Origin: Albimonas pacifica
GTDB taxonomy: Bacteria; Pseudomonadota; Alphaproteobacteria; Rhodobacterales; Rhodobacteraceae
DNA length: 64,000 nt
Direction: 5' to 3'
Assembly (NCBI RefSeq): GCF_900113695.1
Contig: NZ_FOQH01000004.1
Location: 248,001 to 312,000 of the forward strand
The translations under genes and the position numbers were made by a program. Positions 28,240 to 40,876 of the stretch are shown piece after piece; the first letter of the stretch is position 1, and the number at the start of each line of letters is the position of its first letter. The notes beneath the pieces are model-generated. The model was not told the origin of the DNA. It saw nothing but the letters and a program-made list of their open reading frames with translations, and did not search any database.

Positions 28240-29130
28240 ATGGTCCGCTGGCTGGCGCAGGCGAGCGCCGTGCGCGGCGCCGCCCCCGCCACGATCGAGG
28301 CCTACCGGCACGACGTCGCGGGCTTCCTCGCCTTCCTGCGCGACCACCGCGGCGGCCCGCTCACGGCCGCCGCCCTCGCGCAGACCGGCCAGCCGGAGCT
28401 GCGCGCCTGGATGGCGCGCGAGCGCGCCCGCGGCCTCTCCGCCCGCTCGCTGCGCCGGGCGCTGTCGGCGGTGCGCGGCTTCCACCGCTGGCTGGGCGAC
28501 GCGGAAGGGATCGAGGCCCCCGCGGTGCTCGCCGCCCGCGGCCCCCGCGCCCCCGCCCGCCTGCCGCGCCCGGTCTCCGAGGACGCGGCCCGCGCGCTGA
28601 TCGGCGACGCCGAGGCCTCCGACTCCCCCGACTGGATCGCGGCGCGCGACGCCGCGGTGCTGACGCTGCTCTACGGCTGCGGCCTGCGCATCTCCGAGGC
28701 GCTGTCGCTGCGCCGCGCCGACGCCCCGCTGCCCGACGTCCTGCGCATCCGCGGCAAGGGCGGGAAGGAGCGGCTGGTCCCCGTCCTCCCCGCCGCCCGC
28801 GCGGCGGTGGACTGGTATCTGGAGACGGTCCCCTGGCCGGAGACCGCCGGCGACGGCGCCCTGTTCCTGGGCGCGCGCGGCGGCCCGCTTTCGCCTCGGC
28901 TGATCCAGCTGCGCATGGCGCAGGCCCGCGCCCGGCTGGGTCTGCCGGCGACCGCCACCCCTCACGCGCTGCGCCACAGTTTTGCAACGCACCTCCTGAA
29001 GGCAGGCGGCGACCTTCGCGCGATCCAGGAGCTTCTCGGCCACGCCTCGCTCAGCACCACGCAGGTCTACACCGGCCTCGACGAGGCCCGGCTGATGGAG
29101 ATCTACGAAAAGGCCCACCCCCGCGCCTGA
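28240..29130 (+). CDS. xerC: Tyrosine recombinase XerC
   Basis: Site-specific recombinase that acts with XerD at dif to resolve chromosome dimers. An N-terminal SAM-like DNA-binding domain is followed by the catalytic domain with Arg150, Lys173, His242, Arg245, His268 and the nucleophile Tyr277 (QVYTGL), all present. 296 aa from ATG 28240. The frame continues upstream 15 more codons to a CTG at 28195 that overlaps the DUF484 stop; the extension (SAPAEPPLDAATAL) resembles normal XerC N-termini, so the true start may be upstream. Confidence 0.93.
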   Translation: MVRWLAQASAVRGAAPATIEAYRHDVAGFLAFLRDHRGGPLTAAALAQTGQPELRAWMARERARGLSARSLRRALSAVRGFHRWLGDAEGIEAPAVLAARGPRAPARLPRPVSEDAARALIGDAEASDSPDWIAARDAAVLTLLYGCGLRISEALSLRRADAPLPDVLRIRGKGGKERLVPVLPAARAAVDWYLETVPWPETAGDGALFLGARGGPLSPRLIQLRMAQARARLGLPATATPHALRHSFATHLLKAGGDLRAIQELLGHASLSTTQVYTGLDEARLMEIYEKAHPRA

Positions 29131-29185: not shown

Positions 29186-29445
29186 GCGCCTGTTCCCCGG
29201 AGCCGTCCATCGCTGATGCCGCAAGAGCGACTCGCCCGGAGCGGTCAAGGATCGCGCAGCGACCGCGCCCCGCGCGGCTCGTCCTTGACCGCTCCGGGCG
29301 AGTCGCTCAGGCATCGTCGGCGATGGACGGATCCGGGGGACAGGCGCGGGGCTTGTTCCTCGGTGAGTCCGGAGCGGCCTTCCGCGGGCGCCAGCCCGCC
29401 CGCGCGCGAAGCGCGCGCATGCCAAGCCCGCCCGCAGGGCGCCTG
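29186..29445. repeat. Large structured intergenic repeat, copy 1
   Basis: Long imperfect palindrome plus tail, 55 bp after the xerC stop. The inner stem is a perfect 27-bp inverted repeat (29225-29251 with 29282-29308) around a 30-nt loop. The outer stem (29186-29220 with 29311-29347) is nearly perfect, with arms reading GCGCCTGTTCCCCGGAGCCG and its complement with few mismatches. A tail GCGCGGGGCTTGTTC...GTGAGTCCGGAGC and a terminal block at 29421-29445 follow. A second copy is at 39987-40260. It contains no gene. Confidence 0.85.
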
Positions 29446-29484
29446 TAGACCGCCGCTGGCCGCTTGCGGCCGGCTCCCGCGCCC

Positions 29485-30369
29485 TCAGACGTGCCCCTTG
29501 GCCTTGAGATACCGCGCGAGGCTCTCCCGCCAGTCCGGCATCGGCGCGAAGGCGGAGGCCAGCTTCGAGGTGTCCAGCACGGAATAGCCGGGCCGCAGCG
29601 CCCGGGTGGGGAACTCGGCGGAGGTGCAGGGCGTCATCTCGGCCTCGATCCCGGCCTGGCGGACGATCTCGCAGGCGAACTCGAACCAGGTGGCCTCGCC
29701 GCCGCCGGCGACATGCCACAGGCCCGGCTCCACGCCCTCGCGCAGCATCCGCAGGATCACCGCGGCGATGTCGGCGGTGGCGGTCGGCGACATCCGCTGG
29801 TCGTCGACCACCTTCAGCGCCCCGCGCTCGCGGCCGAAGCGGATCATCGTCTCGACGAAGTTGCCGCCCTTCCCGCTCGCCCCCGCCACGCCGTAGAGCG
29901 AGGCGACGCGCAGGATCGTGGGCTCCCCCGCCAGCGAGGCCAGCGTCTCGCCGAAAGCCTTAGAGGCGCCGTAGACGTTGACCGGCGCCGTCGGCGCGTC
30001 CTCGGGCAGCGGCGTCGTCCGCTCCCGGTCGCCGCCGAACACGTAGTCGGTCGAAATGTGGATGAACCGCGCGCCCCGGTCGGCGCAGAGCTTCGCCATC
30101 TGCTGGGGGGCATGGGCGTTGACCGCCATGGCGCGGGAGCCCGCGTCCTCCACCTCGTCGGTCTTGTGGTAGCTGGTGCAGTTGACCAGCGCGTCGAACT
30201 CGACCGCCGCCAGCGTCTCGGCGATCCCTGCGGGGGCCGAGACGTCGAGCTTGTCGCGCCCGAGGGGGATCAGCTCGATCCCCCCCGAAATCCGGTCAGG
30301 CGCGGCGGCATGGGCGGCGGTCAGGTCATGGCCGAGCTGGCCGTTCGCCCCCAGCAGCAGGACCTTCAT
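29485..30369 (-). CDS. rfbD: dTDP-4-dehydrorhamnose reductase
   Basis: 294-aa NADPH-dependent reductase, last step of dTDP-L-rhamnose synthesis for surface polysaccharide. [10 protein letters not shown] is the cofactor loop, ISTDYVFGG and YGASKAFGE (Tyr/Lys of the SDR triad) are diagnostic, and a C-terminal [12 protein letters not shown] motif is present. Its start overlaps the stop of the upstream SDR gene (ATGA). The rfbA and rfbB partners are not in this window. Confidence 0.92.
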
Positions 30370-31388
30370 ATCTCGATGATCCCGCCGTGGAGCTCGACCT
30401 CCTTGATGCGGCGGTGCCAGTCGGCGAGGGTCTTGTACCAGTCGAGCGTGATGGTCTGGGTGGTCTTGTCCAGCGCGCCGGATTCCAGCGCCGCGCAGAT
30501 CTCGATCACGCCGTCCTTGGCGGTGCGCTGCGCCTTCCAGCCCAGGCTCTCGATCTTCTCGAAGCCCACGCGGTAGGAGCGGACGTCCGCGTCGCCATAC
30601 CACTCGATCGTCACCTCGCGCGGCACGTAGGATGCGACCAGCTCGCCCAGCGGGCCCAGCTGGTAGTTGTTCTCCTCGGAGCCGACGTTGAAGATCTGGC
30701 CGCCGACCGTCTCCGCCGGGGCGTCGAGCATGAAGATCTGCGCCGACGCCGTGTCGCGCACATGCACCATCGGGCGCCACTGCGAGCCGTCGCGCATCAG
30801 CGGCAGCTTGCCGGTCTTCCAGGCGCCGTAGGTCATGCCGTTGATCGCCAGATCGAAGCGCATCCGCGGGCTGAGCCCGTAGACGGTGGCCTGGCGCAGC
30901 ACCACCGCGGTGAACCCGTCGCCGTTCAGCGGCAGGATCGCCTGCTCGGCCATCTCGTTGGCGCGCGCGTAGGTGGTCAGCGGGTTGGTGGGCGTCGCCT
31001 CGGTCGCGATCACGCCCGGCTCCTGGAAGCCGTAGATCGAGCAGGACGAGGGCAGGACGTAGCGTTTCACGCCGGCCTGTTTCGCCAGCTCGGCGGTGCG
31101 CACGCGGCTGTCGCGGTTGATCTGCATCGTGGCGTTCTGGAACAGCTCGCCCGACGGGTCGTTGGAGATCGCCACCAGGTCGATCACCGCCTCGATCCCC
31201 TCCAGCAGGCGCTCGGGCAGGACGCGGGTGTCCTCGACCACGATCTCGAGCCCCGGCTGCGGCGGCAGCAGCTCGCGCCCGAAGAAGAAGCGGTCGACGG
31301 CCCGGACGGTGTGCCCGGCCGCCAGCAGCATCGGAACGAGCGAGGTGCCGATGTAGCCCCCGGCCCCGGTCACCAGAACATGCGTCAT
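30366..31388 (-). CDS. NAD-dependent epimerase/dehydratase, atypical SDR
   Basis: 340-aa extended short-chain dehydrogenase with TGAGGYIG (residues 7-14) as cofactor loop. It is embedded between rfbC and rfbD and so likely acts on a nucleotide sugar. The catalytic motif is unusual: Tyr140 is present (TTYARANE), but the position four residues on, normally Lys, is Asn144. It is therefore not a standard RfbB, and its reaction is uncertain; it may be a specialised epimerase, reductase or an inactive homologue. Coupled to rfbD by ATGA. Confidence 0.8.
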
Positions 31389-31466
31389 CGCGGCGATATC
31401 CCCAGAAAGCGTTTCACGCGCGCGCCCGACGGGCGCGCCCTCGGCGCCCCGGCGCGCGTTTCCCCG

Positions 31467-32018
31467 TCAGAACGGGGCGTCGATCTCGGCCAGCGTGGGC
31501 TGGACCTTGTCCTTGTCCGACAGGATCGGCCCGCCCGGAGGCAGCGGCCAGTCGATGCCCAGCGCCGGGTCGGACCACAGCAGGCCCTTGTCGTGCGCCG
31601 GCGCATAATAATTCGTGACCTTGTAGATCACCTCGACGTCCGGCGTCAGGGTGACGAAGCCGTGGGCGAAGCCGACCGGCACCAGGATCTGGTTCCAGGC
31701 CTCGGCCGAGATCTCGGCCGCCACATGCCTGCCGTAGGTCGGCGAGCCCTTCCGCAGGTCCACCGCCACGTCCAGAATCGCGCCGCGCACCACGCGCACC
31801 AGCTTGTCCTGGCCGAAAGGCGGCGTCTGGAAGTGCAGGCCGCGGAGCGTGCCGACCTCGCCGGACAGCGAGTGGTTGTCCTGCACGAAGTCGAGGTCGA
31901 TCCCCGCCTCGGCCAGCGCCTTGCGATTGTACGTCTCCGAGAAGAACCCGCGGTGATCGCCGAACTTCTTCGGCTTCAGGATCTTGACGTCCGGGATCTC
32001 CAGCGCCTCGACGTCCAT
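31467..32018 (-). CDS. rfbC: dTDP-4-dehydrorhamnose 3,5-epimerase
   Basis: 183-aa cupin epimerase of the rhamnose pathway. [32 protein letters not shown] (catalytic His in LHF) and PVGFAHGF are the family motifs. AAGGGGGA precedes the ATG. First gene of the rfbC-SDR-rfbD cluster on the minus strand, 78 bp before the SDR gene. Confidence 0.94.
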
Positions 32019-32132
32019 GCCGTCCCCCTTCCTGAACGCAGGCGCGGCCCGGCCGGGCGCGCCGCGACCCGGTTTAGCGGGCCGCCGCGGGGGAATCCAG
32101 CGCCGCCCGGGGCGTGCGGCGTCAGGACCTGT

Positions 32133-32549
32133 TCATCTCCCGGGGGCGGCGATCATCTCGGCCGCGGCCCGGTCGTAGAGGGCGCGCCAGGCGTCCTCGG
32201 ACTCCGCGTCGAAGGCCTCGCCCAGCGAGGCGCGCAGCGTCTCGATCAGCGCCTCGCGCATCGGCTCGAAGTGGCGGGGCTTCACGCCGTAGGCGGCATG
32301 GCCGCGGCCGAGCTCGACCAGCTCGGCATGCATCGCCTCGGGATGGGACAGGCGCGCGACCAGCAGGCCCAGGGTCGCCATGAACTTCGCGCCCTGCCCG
32401 CCGATGTCCTCGTCGCGGAACATCGGGCGCAGCTCCGGCGCGATCCTGAAGAGCGCGTGGTAGAACTCGGAGGGCGCGTCGGGCGCGTCCCGGCGCAGTG
32501 CGGCGAGCTGGTCGCGCAGCAGCGCGATGCGGTCGGCGTCGAAGGCCAT
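32133..32549 (-). CDS. Single-domain haemoglobin (Hmp/VHb type globin)
   Basis: 138-aa globin without a reductase domain. Proximal haem ligand His84 ([11 protein letters not shown]), PheCD1 (F44), TyrB10 (Y30 in EFYHALF) and GlnE7 (Q52) match the flavohaemoglobin/Vitreoscilla pattern, which favours O2/NO chemistry (NO dioxygenation when a reductase is supplied). AAGGA precedes ATG 32549. An FNR/NnrR-type box lies 77-90 nt upstream, suggesting induction by low oxygen or NO. The nitroreductase gene upstream is in the same direction. Confidence 0.82.
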
Positions 32550-32625
32550 GGCGCGGGTCCTTGCGTCTCGGGCCCCGGAGGAGGCCGGATCGGCCCGACC
32601 CTCGCCGACCCGACCCGCCCCCGCC

Positions 32626-32639
32626 TTGACCCCGATCAA
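32626..32639 (-). promoter_or_regulatory. FNR/NnrR-type box upstream of the globin gene
   Basis: On the minus strand TTGAT-CGGG-GTCAA, a perfect match to the Crp/Fnr family pattern TTGAY-N4-RTCAA used by FnrL, NnrR and Dnr. If the centre is at -41.5, transcription would start near 32591, about 42 nt before the globin ATG, a normal leader. Confidence 0.6.
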
Positions 32640-32687
32640 GCCGCCCCGCGGCCGGCGGGCGCAGGCCGCCCGCCGCGCGGCCCGCGC

Positions 32688-33383
32688 TCAGGCGGTCTCG
32701 GCCGGCTCCTCCCAGCCCACGAAGCGGGCCACCTGCTCGGCCGAGCGGCGGCGCGAGACGACGGCGTTGGCGGGGAACGAGTCGTCCGGCCAGCCCAGCG
32801 CCACGCAGGTCAGGATCACCTGGTCCTCGGGGATCTTCGCGACCTCGCGCACCACCGGGCTCTGCATGATGCCCTGGCCGTTGATCACGCAGCCCAGCCC
32901 CCGGCTCCACGCCGCCAGAACCAGGCCGAAGGTGACGGCGCCGAGGTCGAAATGGGCGATGGTGCCGCCCGGCTCGAGGTCGCGGTCGTAGCAGACCACG
33001 ATCGAGACCGGCGCGTCGAACTGGCGGAAGCCGCGCAGCACCCAGTCCTGGCGACGCTCGGCGTCGTGGCGCTCGATGCCCATCGCCTCGAACAGCTGGA
33101 TGGCGATCTCGACCTGGCGGTCGCGGTGCACGCCCTCGTACTTGCCGTGGTCCTCGATCTCGCGCGTCACCGGGTGGCCGGCGAGCATCCGCTCGGTGTT
33201 GCCCTTGCGGACCCGCTCCAGCGGCTCGCCGGTCAGGACGTGCAGGTGCCAGGGCTGGGTGTTCATCGAGGACGGCGCGCGGTTCGCCAGCGCGATCACC
33301 TCCTCCACCAGGTCCCTCGGCACCGGCTTCTTCTTGAAGCCGCGGATGCTGCGCCGGCCGTTGATGACGTCGTCGAAATCCAT
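32688..33383 (-). CDS. Nitroreductase family flavoprotein
   Basis: 231-aa FMN-dependent NAD(P)H oxidoreductase of the nitroreductase fold. [12 protein letters not shown] (N-terminal FMN-binding Arg/Ser) and [17 protein letters not shown] are typical, with a C-terminal Gly-rich LGCVINGQG segment. Substrate unknown. ATG 33383 follows GGGAGGA. It is separated from the globin gene by 138 bp that include the FNR-type box. Confidence 0.88.
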
Positions 33384-33431
33384 CTCGTTCCTCCCGTTTC
33401 GACCTTGCACGGACCAGGGATCCGCGCGGAG

Positions 33432-33447
33432 TTAATCGCGAGATTAA
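33432..33447. promoter_or_regulatory. Palindrome upstream of nitroreductase
   Basis: TTAATC-GCGA-GATTAA, a 6-bp inverted repeat with a 4-bp centre, 49-64 nt before the nitroreductase ATG. It is AT-rich in a GC-rich setting, typical of a TetR/MarR-like operator. Confidence 0.4.
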
Positions 33448-33503
33448 ACGATCGGAAGCGGGAGGTCATCTCCCTCGCGCGCGGCGGCGGCTCGGGGCGG
33501 AGC

Positions 33504-34325
33504 TCAGTCCGGCGCGCCCATGAACTCCTGCCGGAAGGCGGGGCCCACGCGGTGCAGGTGGCGCAGCTGGCCCAGCGTCGCCGCCGGCTGGCGCACCAGG
33601 TTCCCGTTGAGGAAATACCGCCGCAGCACGCCGCGCGACAGGCTGTGGGCGTTGGCGTGGCCCACCAGGTAGGCCGCCCCGGGGAAGGGCAGCGGCGCGA
33701 TCGGCCGCCCCTCCTGCGCGACCTGGCCCGCGACGCGCACGTGGGAGCCGAGCATCAGCTCCACCCGCTCCCAGTAGCCCGGCGTCTCGGGCTCGGGCAG
33801 GGCGAAGAGGTCGGCGCGCAGGATGTGCGAAGTGCCGCAGACCTTCTCGAAGCGCTCGGTCAGCTTCATCGCGAAGCGGCCGTCGGCGTCCAGGCACCAG
33901 CCGCTCTCGAACACCCAGCCGTTGGCGCCGTCGTTCTCCAGCACGTGGGCGCTGAGCCGGTTGCTGACCAGGTCGTCCCCGTCGACGATCATGAAATAGC
34001 GCGACGCCCCCGCCGCCCGCAGCCCGTCTGCGACCCGCCGGCCCTTGTCGCGCCGGAACACCGCCCAGGCCGCCTGCCGGTCGGTCTTCACCAGGTCGTG
34101 GCCGGGGTTGGGCGGATGGTTCACCCGCGCCACCTCGAACCCCGCCGGCAGCGGCGGCAGGTCGGCGCCCTCGTTGGCCACCACCACCGCCCGCCAGCCG
34201 GGCGCGGTCTGCCCCGCGATCGAGCGGGCGGTGCGCGCGAGGTTGGCTTTCTCGAGCGCCCAGTCCCGCGCGTTCTGCGGATGGCGGATCGGCACGACGA
34301 AGGTCAGGTGCGGCGCGGTGCTCAT
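33504..34325 (-). CDS. Glycosyltransferase-like protein
   Basis: 273-aa protein with a GT-A style N-terminal half: [16 protein letters not shown], a long helix, then [15 protein letters not shown] carrying an Asp-rich DGDD metal/sugar-nucleotide motif. It resembles family 2-like transferases; donor and acceptor are unknown. No signal peptide. The start is uncertain: ATG 34325 is chosen because similarity begins there, but no clear ribosome site is seen. Confidence 0.68.
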
Positions 34326-34568
34326 GTCGACGTCGAGGCCCCCCGGGACGTGCGGCGCGGCCCCCCGGGCCCGCGACGGGACGAAACGCGCCCGCCGGGC
34401 GCGCGGCACAGGCTTCCGTCGGCGGAGCGATCCGGGTCAACCCTGCGGCTTGACGCACGGCCCGCGGGCCCCGGTTCGCGACATCGTGCGGAGCGGACCC
34501 CGCGCCCCGGGCGGCTTCGACGCTCACACCGCTTGACGCGCGTGCGAAGTGGCCGCAAATGGCGCCTC

Positions 34569-36364
<1,796 letters not shown>

Positions 36365-36368
<4 letters not shown>

Positions 36369-36946
36369 CCCTTCTTTTTGGACCTCCTGATCCAGTCGGA
36401 ATAGTAAATAATTAGGCCCGCCACGTCTGACTTTACCTTGTATCGCAATTTAAGGTCCCAGGCAGTAGTTTCTTCAGCCACTGCTGGCCAAGGTATTAGC
36501 AAAGCTGCTGCAAATAGATCAGCCTCAAATTCCTGCACCTCGGTGGTTTTGTAGTGAGCGTCAGTAACCGGGACGCCCTTGTGGAAATTACGGATCTCCA
36601 TACGCTTAGCGACCAAGACATGGAGAACTATATGCCCGATTTCGTGCGCAACGATCTCGCGTGCTTTCGGGTGCATATCCGTAGCGTCGTCATAAGTGCG
36701 CTGATCGATCCTCATAAAGATCTTGTCACGAATATTGACATAGGCCGGCACCTGAACATTTCCGGAATACACTTTTTCTTCAACCATAAAGTCAAAGCTG
36801 TAAATTCCAGCGAAGGGCAGCCGCTCCTCAATGTAGCCAATCGAGTCGAATGGCTCGCTGTCGGAAGCGAACTGACGACGGATGCGAAGAGCTTCATTGA
36901 AGATCCGCTCGACTCTCTTGAGCGGGATCTTGGTGTTACGTCTCAT
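36365..36946 (-). CDS. ImmA/IrrE family metallopeptidase
   Basis: 193-aa zinc peptidase of the ImmA/IrrE (COG2856) family. HEIGH supplies the two His ligands and catalytic Glu; [16 protein letters not shown] is the third-ligand helix with Glu. In ICEBs1 and phages, ImmA cleaves the repressor ImmR; IrrE-like members cleave the HTH repressor DdrO. Here it overlaps by 11 bp an XRE-type regulator upstream, the same pairing. Base composition and codon use are far less GC-rich than all neighbours, a sign of recent gain. Confidence 0.88.
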
Positions 36947-37307
36947 GACCCTTTTCTCCTGCGCGTTTCAGCTCTTGCGTGAAGAGCTCAAGTTGGACCG
37001 GCGTCAACATCGGGCGAACCCTCTCGTAGGCAGCAATAAGACCTGACTCTTCTGGCGAGGCAGGCGTAATCGTCACAGAACCTTGCGCACGATCAATTAG
37101 TGCACTGAGCTTTTCAGTGTCGCCCTCCGAAAGCCCAAAGAACTTTACGATTGGCTCGCGCCAGTAGCGCGGCACAGGCTTCCTACCGAACTCTACAGCA
37201 GACAAAAACGCACTCGACACCTCCAGAGCATCCGCCAAGTGCTTCAGGCGGTAGCCTTTCTTCGCGCGCGTGACGCGCAAGAACTCGCCGATTTCACTTC
37301 GGTCCAT
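36936..37307 (-). CDS. XRE family repressor paired with ImmA
   Basis: 123-aa DNA-binding protein with an N-terminal helix-turn-helix (FLRVTRAKKGYRLKHLADALEVSSAFLSAVEFGRKPVP is the Cro/C1 pattern; recognition helix SAFLSAVEFG) and a C-terminal helical part probably for dimerisation or ImmA recognition. It is upstream of, and overlaps, the ImmA-like gene. AT-rich like its partner. A TTAACC/GGTTAA inverted repeat lies 29-46 nt before the ATG and may be its own operator. Confidence 0.86.
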   Translation of the reverse strand: MDRSEIGEFLRVTRAKKGYRLKHLADALEVSSAFLSAVEFGRKPVPRYWREPIVKFFGLSEGDTEKLSALIDRAQGSVTITPASPEESGLIAAYERVRPMLTPVQLELFTQELKRAGEKGHET

Positions 37308-37689
37308 GTCTCCCTCCTCGACTTGCAGGCACAGGTTAACCCAGCGCGGTTAAGATTTGAAGCCAAATCTGGTATCCATGACGGTGCCAGGCACCATTTC
37401 TGGGGCCAACCACGAGATCGTGCCGATCTGCCGTGGCAACAGACGACAAGCGCGAGCTCTCGGCTCCGGCTTGCAGTGCGGCAACTCATTGCAATCGCGT
37501 GCGGGGGGAGGGGGAGCGACCGCGCTCGCCGTCTAGCGAATTGAAGATCTGCGGGAGCGCACCCCCTCCCGTCGCACGGAATTCACACCCCCGCCCTATC
37601 CTCCCGCGTCGCCCCGCCCCCGCATCCCCCTTGCGCGGCGCATCAAAACCCGCTCACCTGAGCGTCACCTAACCGACATGGAGCGACCG
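37308..37689. other. Intergenic region between XRE and 5'-nucleotidase genes
   Basis: About 380 bp. The left half is AT-richer and belongs to the XRE-ImmA island, with the two palindromes noted separately. The right half (37500-37660) is GC-rich with C runs. No believable gene is seen. Confidence 0.5.
37336..37353. promoter_or_regulatory. Likely autoregulatory operator of the XRE gene
   Basis: TTAACC-CAGCGC-GGTTAA is a perfect 6-bp inverted repeat with 6-nt spacer, 29-46 nt before the XRE start, where a promoter would lie. A second palindrome, GGTGCC-A-GGCACC (37383-37395), is 30 bp farther upstream. Confidence 0.45.
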
Positions 37690-39288
37690 ATGACCCCCCG
37701 CACCTCCGCCGGCCTGCTCAGGTCCGCCGTGGCCTCGCTGGCGCTGCTCGCGCCCGTGGCCGCCTCGGCCGACTACGCGCTCACCGTTCTGCACACCAAC
37801 GATTTCCACGCCCGCTTCGAGCCGATCTCGAAATACGACTCCGGCTGCTCGGCCGAGGACAACGCGGAGGGCAAGTGCTTCGGCGGCTCGGCCCGGCTCG
37901 CCACCGCCGTGGCGGCGGAGAAGGCGGCCTCGTCGAACCCGATCCTGCTCGACGGGGGCGACCAGTTCCAGGGCACGCTCTTCTACACCTACTACAAGGG
38001 CAAGGCCGCGGCCGAGATGATGAACGGCCTGGGCTACGACGCGATGACCGTGGGCAACCACGAATTCGACGACGGCCCCGAGGTGCTCAAGGGCTTCATG
38101 GAGGCCGTCGACTTCCCCGTGCTGATGTCCAACGCCGACGTCAGCCAGGAGCCGGCGCTCGCCGACGTCCTGCAGAAGTCCACCGTCGTCGAGAAGAACG
38201 GCGAGAAGATCGGCCTGATCGGCCTGACCCCGCAGGACACCGCCGAACTGGCCTCGCCGGGCAAGAACATCACCTTCGGCGACCCGGTGGAAGCCGTCCG
38301 CGCCGAGGTCGAGAAACTGACCGCCGAGGGCGTGAACAAGATCATCGTCCTCTCGCACTCGGGCTACGGCGTCGACCAGCGGGTGGCGGCGCAGGTGGCG
38401 GGGGTCGACATCATCGTCGGCGGCCACACCAACACGCTGCTCTCGAACACCAACGAGAAGGCCGAGGGCCCCTATCCCACCTGGATCGACGGCCCCGACG
38501 GCGGCCGCACCGCGATCCTCTCGGCCTACGCCTACGGCAAGTACCTCGGCAAGCTCGAGGCCGTCTTCGACGACGAGGGCAAGCTGACCGACGCGACCCA
38601 GGGCGAGCCGGTGCTGATGGACGCCTCCATCGCCGAGGACATGCAGGTCAAGGGCCGGATCGAGGAGCTGGCCGAGCCGCTCCAGCAGATCCGCGAGAAG
38701 GTGGTCGCCCAGACCGAGCAGCCCATCGGCGGCGACCGCGCGGTCTGCCGCTCGGAGGTCTGCGAGATGGGCGTGCTGGTCGCCGACGCGATGCTCGACC
38801 GGGTCAAGGACCAGGGCGTGGACGTCGCCATCGCCAACGGCGGCGGGCTTCGCGCCTCGATCGACGCGGGCGAGGTGACGATGGGCGAGGTGCTGACGGT
38901 GCTGCCGTTCCAGAACACGCTCGCCACCTTCCAGCTGACCGGCGCCGGCATCGTCGAGGCGCTGGAGAACGGCGTCAGCCAGGTCGAGGAAGGCGCCGGG
39001 CGCTTCCCGCAGATCTCGGGCATGCGCTTCGTGTGGGATCCCGCGCAGCCCGCCGGCTCGCGCATCGTCTCGGTGGAGATCGGCGGCGAGGCCCTGGATC
39101 CCGCCAAGACCTACGGGGTGGTGTCGAACAACTACATGCGCTCGGGCGGCGACGGCTACGCGGTCTTCGCCGAGAAGGGCGAGAACGCCTACGACTACGG
39201 CCCCGACCTCGCGGACGTGGTGGCCGAGTACCTGGCGGCCAACGCGCCCTACACGCCGCATGTGGACGACCGCATTTCGAAGAAGTGA
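37690..39288 (+). CDS. Secreted bifunctional metallophosphatase/5'-nucleotidase
   Basis: UshA-family enzyme, 532 aa, which dephosphorylates nucleotides or UDP-sugars in the periplasm. A Sec signal peptide (hydrophobic LLRSAVASLALLAPVAASA) ends before DYALTVLHTNDFH. Metallophosphoesterase motifs HTNDFH, GGDQFQG, GNHEFD and GGHTN are present, and the C-terminal nucleotidase domain runs from about residue 330 (VCRSEVCEMGVLVADAML). ATG 37690 is preferred over ATG 37678 because GGAG stands 7 nt before it. Phosphate scavenging is the likely role. Confidence 0.92.
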   Translation: MTPRTSAGLLRSAVASLALLAPVAASADYALTVLHTNDFHARFEPISKYDSGCSAEDNAEGKCFGGSARLATAVAAEKAASSNPILLDGGDQFQGTLFYTYYKGKAAAEMMNGLGYDAMTVGNHEFDDGPEVLKGFMEAVDFPVLMSNADVSQEPALADVLQKSTVVEKNGEKIGLIGLTPQDTAELASPGKNITFGDPVEAVRAEVEKLTAEGVNKIIVLSHSGYGVDQRVAAQVAGVDIIVGGHTNTLLSNTNEKAEGPYPTWIDGPDGGRTAILSAYAYGKYLGKLEAVFDDEGKLTDATQGEPVLMDASIAEDMQVKGRIEELAEPLQQIREKVVAQTEQPIGGDRAVCRSEVCEMGVLVADAMLDRVKDQGVDVAIANGGGLRASIDAGEVTMGEVLTVLPFQNTLATFQLTGAGIVEALENGVSQVEEGAGRFPQISGMRFVWDPAQPAGSRIVSVEIGGEALDPAKTYGVVSNNYMRSGGDGYAVFAEKGENAYDYGPDLADVVAEYLAANAPYTPHVDDRISKK

Positions 39289-39351
39289 GCGGGACGTCCC
39301 GCGGTCCGCGCCCGGTTGACGGGGCGCGGTCTTGCGGGCGATGGGGGGAGA

Positions 39352-39373
39352 GGGCCGGCCTTCGGGCCGGCCC
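39352..39373 (+). terminator. UUCG-capped terminator hairpin
   Basis: GGGCCGGCC, loop TTCG, GGCCGGCCC: a perfect 9-bp stem with an extra-stable tetraloop, 63 bp after the nucleotidase stop and 25 bp before the next start. Confidence 0.75.
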
Positions 39374-39397
39374 TTCGCATTCGCAGGGAGGGCGGGC

Positions 39398-39937
39398 TTG
39401 CAGGGGACGAAGGGCGATCCAGCGCCGGCGGACCCGTTCGCCCCGGACTGCCCGCGCTGCGCGGCGCTGTGCTGCGTGGCGCTGGCCTTCGACCGCTCCG
39501 ACCTCTTCGCCTTCGACAAGCCGGCGGGAGAGCCCTGCCGCCACCTCGCGGGCCACGCCTGCACGATCCACGACCGGCTGTCGGAGGCGGGCTTCGGCGG
39601 CTGCGTGCGCTACGACTGCCTGGGCGCCGGCCAGGCGACAGTGCAGGAGGTCTTCGGCGGCCGGAGCTGGCGCGACGATCCCGCGCTGCTGGCCCCGATG
39701 ATGGAGGCGTTCCGCGCCCTGCGCCGGATCCGGGACCTGGCCCAGCTCCTCGACGCCGCCGCGGGCCTGCCCCTGCCGCCCCGGACCGCCGCCCGCCGCA
39801 CGAGCCTCGCCGCCGCCCTCGCCCCGCCCGAGGGCTGGACCCGCGAGGCGCTCGCCGCCTTCGACGCCGGCCCCCTCCCTGCCGAGATCGCCGCCTTCCT
39901 GCGCACCCTGCGCGACGCCGTCCCCCGCCCCGCCTGA
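39398..39937 (+). CDS. YkgJ-like cysteine-cluster protein
   Basis: 179-aa protein with N-terminal cysteines CPRCAALCC, then EPCRHLAGHACTIHDRL and GGCVRYDC, the pattern of the YkgJ/UPF0153 zinc- or iron-binding family. The rest is Ala/Leu-rich helix. Function unknown. No ATG fits: TTG 39398 has AGGGAGGG 5 nt before it and gives the expected N-terminus, so a TTG start is likely. Followed 50 bp later by copy 2 of the structured repeat. Confidence 0.72.
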   Translation: MQGTKGDPAPADPFAPDCPRCAALCCVALAFDRSDLFAFDKPAGEPCRHLAGHACTIHDRLSEAGFGGCVRYDCLGAGQATVQEVFGGRSWRDDPALLAPMMEAFRALRRIRDLAQLLDAAAGLPLPPRTAARRTSLAAALAPPEGWTREALAAFDAGPLPAEIAAFLRTLRDAVPRPA

Positions 39938-39986
39938 TCCGCCGCCGCCCAGGCGCCCTGGCGCGCCGCCGGCCGGGCCGCGCAGA

Positions 39987-40260
39987 GCGCCTGTTCTCCG
40001 GAGCCGTCCATCGCGGATGCCGATCGGAGCGACTCGGGGGGAGGGGTCAAGGATCGCGCAGCGACCGCGCGAAGCGCGGCTTGTCCTTGACCCCTCCCCC
40101 CGAGTCGCTCAGGCATCGGACGCGATGGACGGCTCCGGAGGACAGGCGCGGGGCTTGTTCTCGGGTGAGTCCGGAGCCCGCCGGAGGCTCCCCCTTCTCC
40201 GATCGGCCGCCGCGGCCCACCAGCCGCGCGACGCAGCCAAGCCCGCCCGCAGGGCGCCTG
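39987..40260. repeat. Large structured intergenic repeat, copy 2
   Basis: Second copy of the element at 29186-29445, same orientation. The inner stem is again a perfect 27-bp inverted repeat (40027-40053 with 40084-40110) and the outer stem pairs 39987-40021 with 40112-40149. Loop, tail (40147-40178) and end block (40236-40260) are conserved with copy 1. The inner arms differ from copy 1 at four positions, each with the matching change in the other arm. It lies 50 bp after a stop codon, as copy 1 does. Confidence 0.85.
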
Positions 40261-40345: not shown

Positions 40346-40876
40346 ATGATCATCCGCATCGCCCTCGCCGTCCTGTTCCTGTTCCTGTGCTGGCTCGTCT
40401 GGCGCAACCTCGGCGCGCGCGCGCGGTTCCGCGCCGACCAGCGCAAGGCCTGGGACGAGCCGCTGCGCGAGGGCTCGGCGGTGATCCTCTCGGCCGCGCC
40501 CTCGGCCTGGTGGTGGCTGCTGGCGCTGGCCGCGGTGGCGGCGCTGGTGGGGCGCTCCCTGTTCGAGCGCATGGCCGCGGGCGAGGGCGTGGGCCCCACC
40601 TTCTGGCACTGGATCATCTTCCTGGGCCTCGCCGGCGTCGCCGCGCGCCGGGCCGTGCAGCTCAGCGAGCGGGTCACCGTCACCTGGGACCGCATCGCCT
40701 CGCGCAACATTCTCGGGCCCCGCTACGCGCTGCCGCTCAAGGACGTCACCGGGGTGACCGAGGACGACCGCACGGCCCTGATCGCCTTCCGCGGCGGGCG
40801 GGTGCTGGAGCTCTCGCCCTGGCTCGAGGGCCGCTTCTGGCTGGCGCGGGAGCTTCGCGCCCGCGTCGCCCGCTAG
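40346..40876 (+). CDS. Hypothetical membrane protein
   Basis: 176 aa with an N-terminal membrane helix (residues 3-20) and two more hydrophobic segments (about 53-71 and 84-101), followed by a soluble C-terminal part (about residues 110-176) whose strand pattern (VTVTWDRIASRNILGPRYALPLKDVTGV) resembles bacterial PH-like domains. Function unknown. Single gene convergent with the MFS gene. Confidence 0.7.
   Translation: MIIRIALAVLFLFLCWLVWRNLGARARFRADQRKAWDEPLREGSAVILSAAPSAWWWLLALAAVAALVGRSLFERMAAGEGVGPTFWHWIIFLGLAGVAARRAVQLSERVTVTWDRIASRNILGPRYALPLKDVTGVTEDDRTALIAFRGGRVLELSPWLEGRFWLARELRARVAR

Follow-up and report, generated by a model that had tools for sequence, protein, structure and literature searches.

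How the two arms of a hairpin can change between copies of a bacterial repeat while staying matched within each copy is a question raised by two intergenic palindromes in a 64,000-nucleotide stretch of the Albimonas pacifica genome (contig NZ_FOQH01000004.1, positions 248,001 to 312,000; hereafter the window). Although such repeats are common, how their copies remain alike and paired has so far been mostly a matter of guesswork. The two elements are nested hairpins read on the + strand, at 29186–29347 (copy 1) and 39987–40149 (copy 2). A first-pass annotation had described their inner arms as perfect 27-bp inverted repeats that differ between the copies at exactly four positions, all compensated, together with a compensated outer-stem difference (C-G in copy 1, T-A in copy 2), and direct reading bears out each of these points. 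Both copies fold far below their dinucleotide shuffles (z of −12.5 and −12.2, with none of 200 shuffles as low), confirming that the two hairpins are real. Our analysis indicates that they belong to a family that probably evolves in concert, its hairpin interiors being exchanged between fixed loci while the fold of one strand is under selection.

The element spans about 162 nt and is built in layers, with an outer stem that starts GCGCCTGTTC and closes with CAGGCGC, an inner 27-bp stem within it that reads GAGCGACTCG, nine variable bases, and GTCAAGGA, and a branched tip. The inner arms lie at 29225–29251 and 29282–29308 in copy 1 (with the variable layer at 29235–29243 and 29290–29298) and at 40027–40053 and 40084–40110 in copy 2. 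The tip consists of two small hairpins, TCGC-GNA-GCGA and one with a variable stem, followed by CTTG or CTCG; that of copy 1 (29252–29281) carries a GCA loop in the first hairpin and ends in CTCG, forming a three-way junction, and that of copy 2 occupies 40054–40083. A longer repeat unit encloses the hairpin, continuing with GGTGAGT and ending at GCCAAGCCCGCCCGCAGGGCGCC or near it in most copies; the second half of its base unit runs over 29360–29445 in copy 1 and 40162–40260 in copy 2, terminating in GGGCGCCTG in both. The tail proposed as common to the two copies is so in part, since its start and end blocks align well but its middle does not. In a check by eye for a GTAG tag, some copies showed TGTAGACCG after the close of the repeat unit, away from the hairpin.

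A genome-wide search for further copies, as the first-pass annotation had proposed, revealed a family of about 146 nested hairpins dispersed between the genes of this 6.02-Mb genome (G000). Exact core sites numbered 143 (72 + 71), with none for reversed controls, and the pattern GTCAAGGA...TCCTTGAC occurred at 129 places as against 1 for its control. Extraction yielded 147 matches, one of them false (L204, which holds no element), and 144 entered the arm analysis after L095 and L140, which have a mutated right-arm anchor and extra mispairs, were also left out. These 144 copies carry 50 different 9-nt arm types and 62 tip sequences. Four unusual copies (L119, L165 and L170, and L224 in the sister species introduced below) have the GAGCGACTCG block replaced as well, with longer, different arms that are matched or nearly so, and two others (L139 and L190) lack the left outer arm, retain the inner part only and have the appearance of broken copies.

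Pairing is kept in every layer of the hairpin family. The first-pass annotation's claim that the pairing itself is what is conserved withstood comparison with the other copies, whose arms have not drifted apart: among 141 comparable copies, 88 have no inner-arm mispair, 44 have one and nine have two, counts that omit the truncated left arms of L139 and L190 and a one-base shift in L205 (these three have 8, 9 and 11 mispairs). Inner-arm pairs in the 141 copies are 98.4% Watson-Crick and 1.05% G.T, where the right-arm anchor of the census restricts variation in its first eight bases. The variable 9-bp layer pairs at 97.1% Watson-Crick, compared with a mean of 58.7% and a highest value of 62.8% in 500 re-deals of the right arms among copies. 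These observations were further strengthened by a covariation analysis of 65 equal-length copies (63 distinct; a subset of the 144, comprising all but one of the 66 with 30-nt tips, L102 being omitted for its other tip layout), in which 99.6% of cells pair, as opposed to 87.3% after shuffling and 38–47% with slid partners. The covariation score is 0.275 as against 0.062 for shuffled (none of 500 shuffles as high) and 0.040–0.074 for slid alignments, and 20 of the 37 pairs have changed on both sides.

Such matching could in principle arise without any selection if one arm were recopied from its partner at replication, through template switching in quasi-palindromes, an account that accords with the 88 of 141 perfect-armed copies and with whole 9-nt layers that vary between copies yet match within them. 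Selection on structure and arm-to-arm copying were the two causes that the first-pass annotation had offered, and the mispairs that do occur separate them. The 62 mispairs in the 141 copies are mainly of the kinds that are stable on one strand, comprising 40 G.T, 11 G.G, 5 T.C, 3 G.A and single cases of A.C, C.A and C.C, so that A.C-type mispairs total 2 against 40 G.T, whereas a strand-blind process would give G.T equal to A.C and G.G equal to C.C. Counted as distinct cases of position and arm background, the ratios are 26:2 for G.T to A.C and 10:1 for G.G to C.C; one outer pair is found across copies as A-T in 41, G-C in 29, G.T in 16 and A.C in none. The sister species Albimonas sp. CAU 1670 (G001) has the same sign, with 36 G.T/T.G to 2 A.C and 5 G.G to 0 C.C. 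Copying should ignore wobble and strand, and the pure form of it is therefore unsupported: it would not be expected to spare G.T relative to A.C, or G.G relative to C.C, on a particular strand whatever the orientation, nor to have a single arm recurring at 21 of 137 loci of one species when none of 45 orthologous pairs has the same arm in both members. We regard arm-to-arm correction as very improbable; the one-strand bias favours the other cause offered, selection on the folded strand.

The kept fold thus belongs to one strand, the one reading GTCAAGGATCGCG..., and this + strand folds better than its complement in 138 of 140 copies by RNA rules and 137 of 140 by DNA rules. As to which molecule folds, the tip is more stable on the + strand in 140 of 141 copies by DNA rules and in 43 of 141 by RNA rules, and the first tip hairpin has a C(GNA)G loop in 61 of 61 copies of the sister species, with all four bases found at N, and a GNA loop in 137 of 137 copies here. 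C(GNA)G loops are described as exceptionally stable DNA minihairpins in the available text of PMC4686876. Because of these GNA loops and the tip stability modelled by DNA rules, single-stranded DNA (ssDNA) appears a little more likely than RNA to be the folding molecule.

The location of the elements bears on the same question. They favour the 3' ends of genes and are rare between divergent genes: element-bearing gaps are convergent in 55 cases, tandem in 78 and divergent in 13 (a context count that includes L204), compared with 11, 65 and 51 among gaps of at least 100 bp without an element (chi-square P = 5e-12). The gaps were drawn from element-centred loci and the window, so that absolute fractions are biased, and genes were called by a simple codon-score method rather than taken from curated annotation. 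In the window, copy 1 lies between convergent genes, a + gene ending at 29130 that resembles xerC and a − gene ending at 29485 that resembles rfbD (names from reading the translations, without a family search), and copy 2 lies between a + gene that ends at 39937 and a + gene that starts at 40346. This distribution would suit a structured RNA acting in cis at mRNA 3' ends, a stabiliser or bidirectional terminator that folds in read-through RNA, with compensation selected locus by locus and gene conversion as a side effect. Tolerance of G.U pairs fits this as well, and the available text of PMC3733652 argues likewise for repetitive extragenic palindromic (REP) sequences from location and GT pairing. 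Against it, the strand bias does not track local transcription. It persists when the upstream gene runs in the opposite direction (-- and -+ contexts; G.T 10, A.C 1) and when both neighbours do (G.T 6, A.C 1, albeit small numbers), and thus seems tied to the element rather than to local mRNA. In addition, the tandem contexts are nearly balanced (++ 45, -- 34), and the two window copies and the consensus lack the run of T directly after the hairpin that marks an intrinsic terminator, although no terminator scan was made. Selection on a cis-acting RNA at each locus is accordingly a possible but unlikely explanation of the family.

Comparison with the sister species shows how the hairpins change over longer times. 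A copy exists at the corresponding place in A. pacifica for 45 of 61 copies of the sister species, pairs having been sought in the same orientation only and supported by both flanks in 41 cases and by one flank in 4. Flank identity is 74–95% in all pairs but one (L306/L135, among the pairs with a single flank, 68% over 777 bases); shared places with such similar flanks imply that many of the places are old. This contradicts the notion that the arms match merely because all copies are young products of a transposon. High similarity among copies (79–91% identity to copy 1 of the window, among the other full-direction matches scored) would agree with recent origin, but the occupation of 45 shared places between flanks mostly 74–95% identical, and the nearly universal matching of arms across the 50 arm types of the 144 copies, leave it extremely improbable.

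While the places are old, the hairpins at them retain no trace of which locus they occupy. When all candidates are ranked by similarity for 41 pairs, the mean rank percentile of the ortholog is 0.50, which is chance, for the hairpin, but 0.27 for the upstream flank and 0.07 for the downstream one, where 32 of 41 orthologs rank in the top 1%. Hairpin similarity is 0.72 within the sister species and 0.65 between a sister-species copy and its ortholog, the same as its similarity to the other A. pacifica loci (0.65). The same holds layer by layer at the 45 shared loci, where the 9-nt arm is identical at none (0.8 expected from a random deal), the second tip hairpin at one (1.3), the first tip hairpin at 18 (17.2) and the outer block at 17 (15.8). 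With similarity within a species above similarity between orthologs, this is concerted evolution in which locus memory has been lost in the hairpin. Since the interiors carry no locus memory, much of what looks like compensated change is probably the exchange of already matched hairpins.

The layers do not travel as one block. In A. pacifica the left and right arms share 4.27 of 4.80 bits of mutual information, while outer block and tip, as well as first tip hairpin and arm, stand at the null. The layers mostly reassort, and the two arms of one layer travel together.

The hairpin as a whole can also be present or absent. It is flanked by TGTTCT, TGTTCC or TGTTTC; in copy 1 the direct repeats are TGTTCC at 29191–29196 and at 29354–29359, the latter adjoining the hairpin on its outside, and in copy 2 they are TGTTCT at 39992–39997 and 40156–40161. 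The three bases after TGT agree between left and right in 137 of 137 copies of A. pacifica and 60 of 60 of the sister species, counting those with an identifiable right repeat (all but 3 of 140 and 1 of 61, respectively). At the place orthologous to copy 2, the sister species has only AGCGCCTGTTCT-TTGGTGAG, with the hairpin absent. Altogether, four loci (copy 2 and three more) are filled here and empty in the sister species and one is empty here and filled there, the empty units carrying one TGTTCY. Direct repeats and empty units together imply that the hairpin can be precisely lost, or gained, between direct repeats.

These features suggest a form of cassette mobility, in which an excisable hairpin enters the dispersed AGCGCCTGTTCT unit and duplicates TGTTCT, shared loci being landing sites that hold different cassettes in each species. 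The hairpin-less orthologous units with one TGTTCY (four loci versus one), the complete agreement of the flanking repeats and a landing site complementary to the right outer arm all speak for it. However, movement of whole cassettes leaves the reassortment of layers inside them unexplained, and the few empty sites could be slippage deletions between direct repeats. Moreover, a search for transposases and integrases that was limited to the Y1_Tnp domain of RAYT proteins (PF01797) detected it in none of three Albimonas genomes (the two above and a second congener, G002), as compared with 5 of 14 control genomes. Cassette mobility by itself is thus unlikely. A broader variant, an enzyme-unassigned system in which ssDNA hairpins leave some 150 fixed landing units (AGCGCCTGTTCT) and enter them again via right-arm complementarity while nested parts also recombine concentrically, is more speculative and would in our estimate be quite unlikely; if true, the genome would maintain at its gene ends a common, reshuffled stock of matched hairpins.

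The explanation that we favour, exchange of interiors under selection for the fold of one strand, could proceed as follows. Hairpin interiors would swap between loci, and mispaired products would be removed since the + strand must fold. On the most likely route, the + strand would fold while single-stranded and the hairpin would then be cut near its tip, the gap being refilled from another copy for which the conserved stem blocks would provide homology, so that matched arm pairs would swap concentrically. New arm sequences would arise by point change through the tolerated G.T and G.G states. The route of exchange would presumably be either such breakage and gap repair or movement of cassettes between the TGTTCT repeats. 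For part of the data the chief competing account is cassette excision and insertion, and for the selection it is a local RNA role.

Several observations weigh against this explanation and temper our confidence in it. No exchange event was observed directly, and relatives of SbcD (TIGR00619) fall below the cut-off in all three Albimonas genomes, as compared with 8 of 14 control genomes above it. In a toy simulation, random linear conversion tracts left 45–97 chimeras per 140 copies after one to two exchanges per copy, whereas no more than two mispairs occur in any of the 141 comparable copies, which means that exchange would have to be symmetric or selection very strong. Residual links persist between layers, namely arm and second tip hairpin (2.40 bits versus a null of 2.22, z 3.5), arm and outer block (0.88 versus 0.61 by chance, z 5.3), first and second tip hairpin (0.41 versus 0.25, z 3.7) and closing bases and outer block (0.16 versus 0.06, z 5.3). 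Some locus memory persists in the repeat unit on either side of the hairpin, with ortholog rank percentiles of 0.36 on the right and 0.41 on the left. In the sister species, whose 61 parsed copies were chosen by similarity and are not a full census, inner stems are less regular: only 15 of 61 are perfect, with one, two and three mispairs in 24, 17 and 5, and 16 C.T and 11 G.A mispairs also occur there as variants that recur in many copies. As for the lean towards ssDNA, the GNA loop of the A. pacifica copies was mostly preset (GCA or GAA) by the census patterns, so that only the sister-species loops count as evidence, and the GCAA and CTTG loops seen in part of the second hairpins suit RNA too.

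The family appears narrowly distributed. Across 387 genomes of the class, GTCAAGGA...TCCTTGAC matched in 13, with 129 places in A. pacifica and one in each of 12 others; because the reversed control reaches the same level (one match in each of 24 of the other genomes, by hand count), these 12 single matches are at chance level. Among 61 relatives, the sister species has 25 matches, G020 has five (with other tips) and five more genomes have one each; the second congener has no exact match and one tip-like match of 46 bp. In three members of the same taxonomic family (G020, G006 and G022), between one and five GTCAAGGA...TCCTTGAC hairpins occur, and their tips, though different, by eye also resemble two small hairpins. 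At gathering score, Rfam gave no match in the window and only a tRNA in 16 of the 58 related stretches; permissive scoring gave four matches below gathering score, of which three were to microRNA families and one was to a snoRNA family, none of them bacterial. No description of the family appeared in searches of the mainly non-subscription literature on dispersed palindromes, REP transposases, GNA hairpins, palindrome cleavage and Albimonas genomes, and a literature search with the core letters returned only an entry unrelated by its title.

A separate observation concerns the tip core GGATCGCGCAGCGACCGCG. Other genomes hold 59 instances of it in 58 stretches (L032–L088); GTCAA just before it and/or TCCTTGA at most 75 nt after it accompany 35 of the 59, and both accompany 24. 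The taxa with this context include Nocardioides, Shimia, sphingomonads, Fluviibacterium, Niveibacterium and Albimonas, making it a cross-phylum tip motif; in Nocardioides the tips with GGATCGCGCAGCGACCGCG have three small GNA hairpins. About 70 nt after the motif are identical in L060 (Sphingopyxis) and in L067, L085 and L088, three metagenome-assembled genomes (MAGs) of Sphingorhabdus, Reyranella and Sphingobium, respectively, which suggests either a mobile piece or MAG contamination.

Taken together, at dozens of loci common to two related genomes the flanks have stayed in place and the hairpin has been exchanged entirely, and a one-strand wobble signature accompanies this. Such a system makes the joint evolution of bacterial hairpin repeats directly testable and separates selection on the fold from copying between arms.

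Among known systems, non-autonomous elements of the IS200/IS605 type are alike in that one strand forms an ssDNA hairpin and the target is partly recognised by base pairing, but no Y1 transposase was found in the three Albimonas genomes. Integron attC sites likewise fold strand-specifically, keep structure while sequence varies and lie at gene 3' ends, whereas the present copies are dispersed rather than arrayed and have a long near-perfect stem. Closer are the CGTC-tagged REPs of alphaproteobacteria, for which the available text of Di Nocera (2013, PMC3733652) gives stems of 8–9 bp with AT in the first positions, loops of 4–5 nt and, in most cases, a CCA tail; they too are alphaproteobacterial palindromes with no dedicated transposase, found mainly in convergent or tandem gaps and with GT pairs in their stems. 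Membership in that group is ruled out by stem, loop, first-position AT and tail, as these are described there. REPINs, defined as two REPs in inverted orientation and linked to RAYT transposases (Bertels and Rainey 2011, PMC3116915), are similarly dispersed, extragenic, high-copy and palindromic, with conserved outer and variable inner parts, and the portion of that report available to us notes compensatory changes and predicts folding as ssDNA or mRNA. They differ from the family here, in which a longer repeat unit holds a single nested hairpin of 162 nt whose tip branches, and for which there was no Y1_Tnp match; the lost locus memory and the reassortment of layers are observations that, relative to that portion, the present analysis adds. 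The nearest known kinds are therefore REPINs and the transposase-less CGTC REPs, each failing a defining feature, and the best reading of these elements is as a REPIN-like family.

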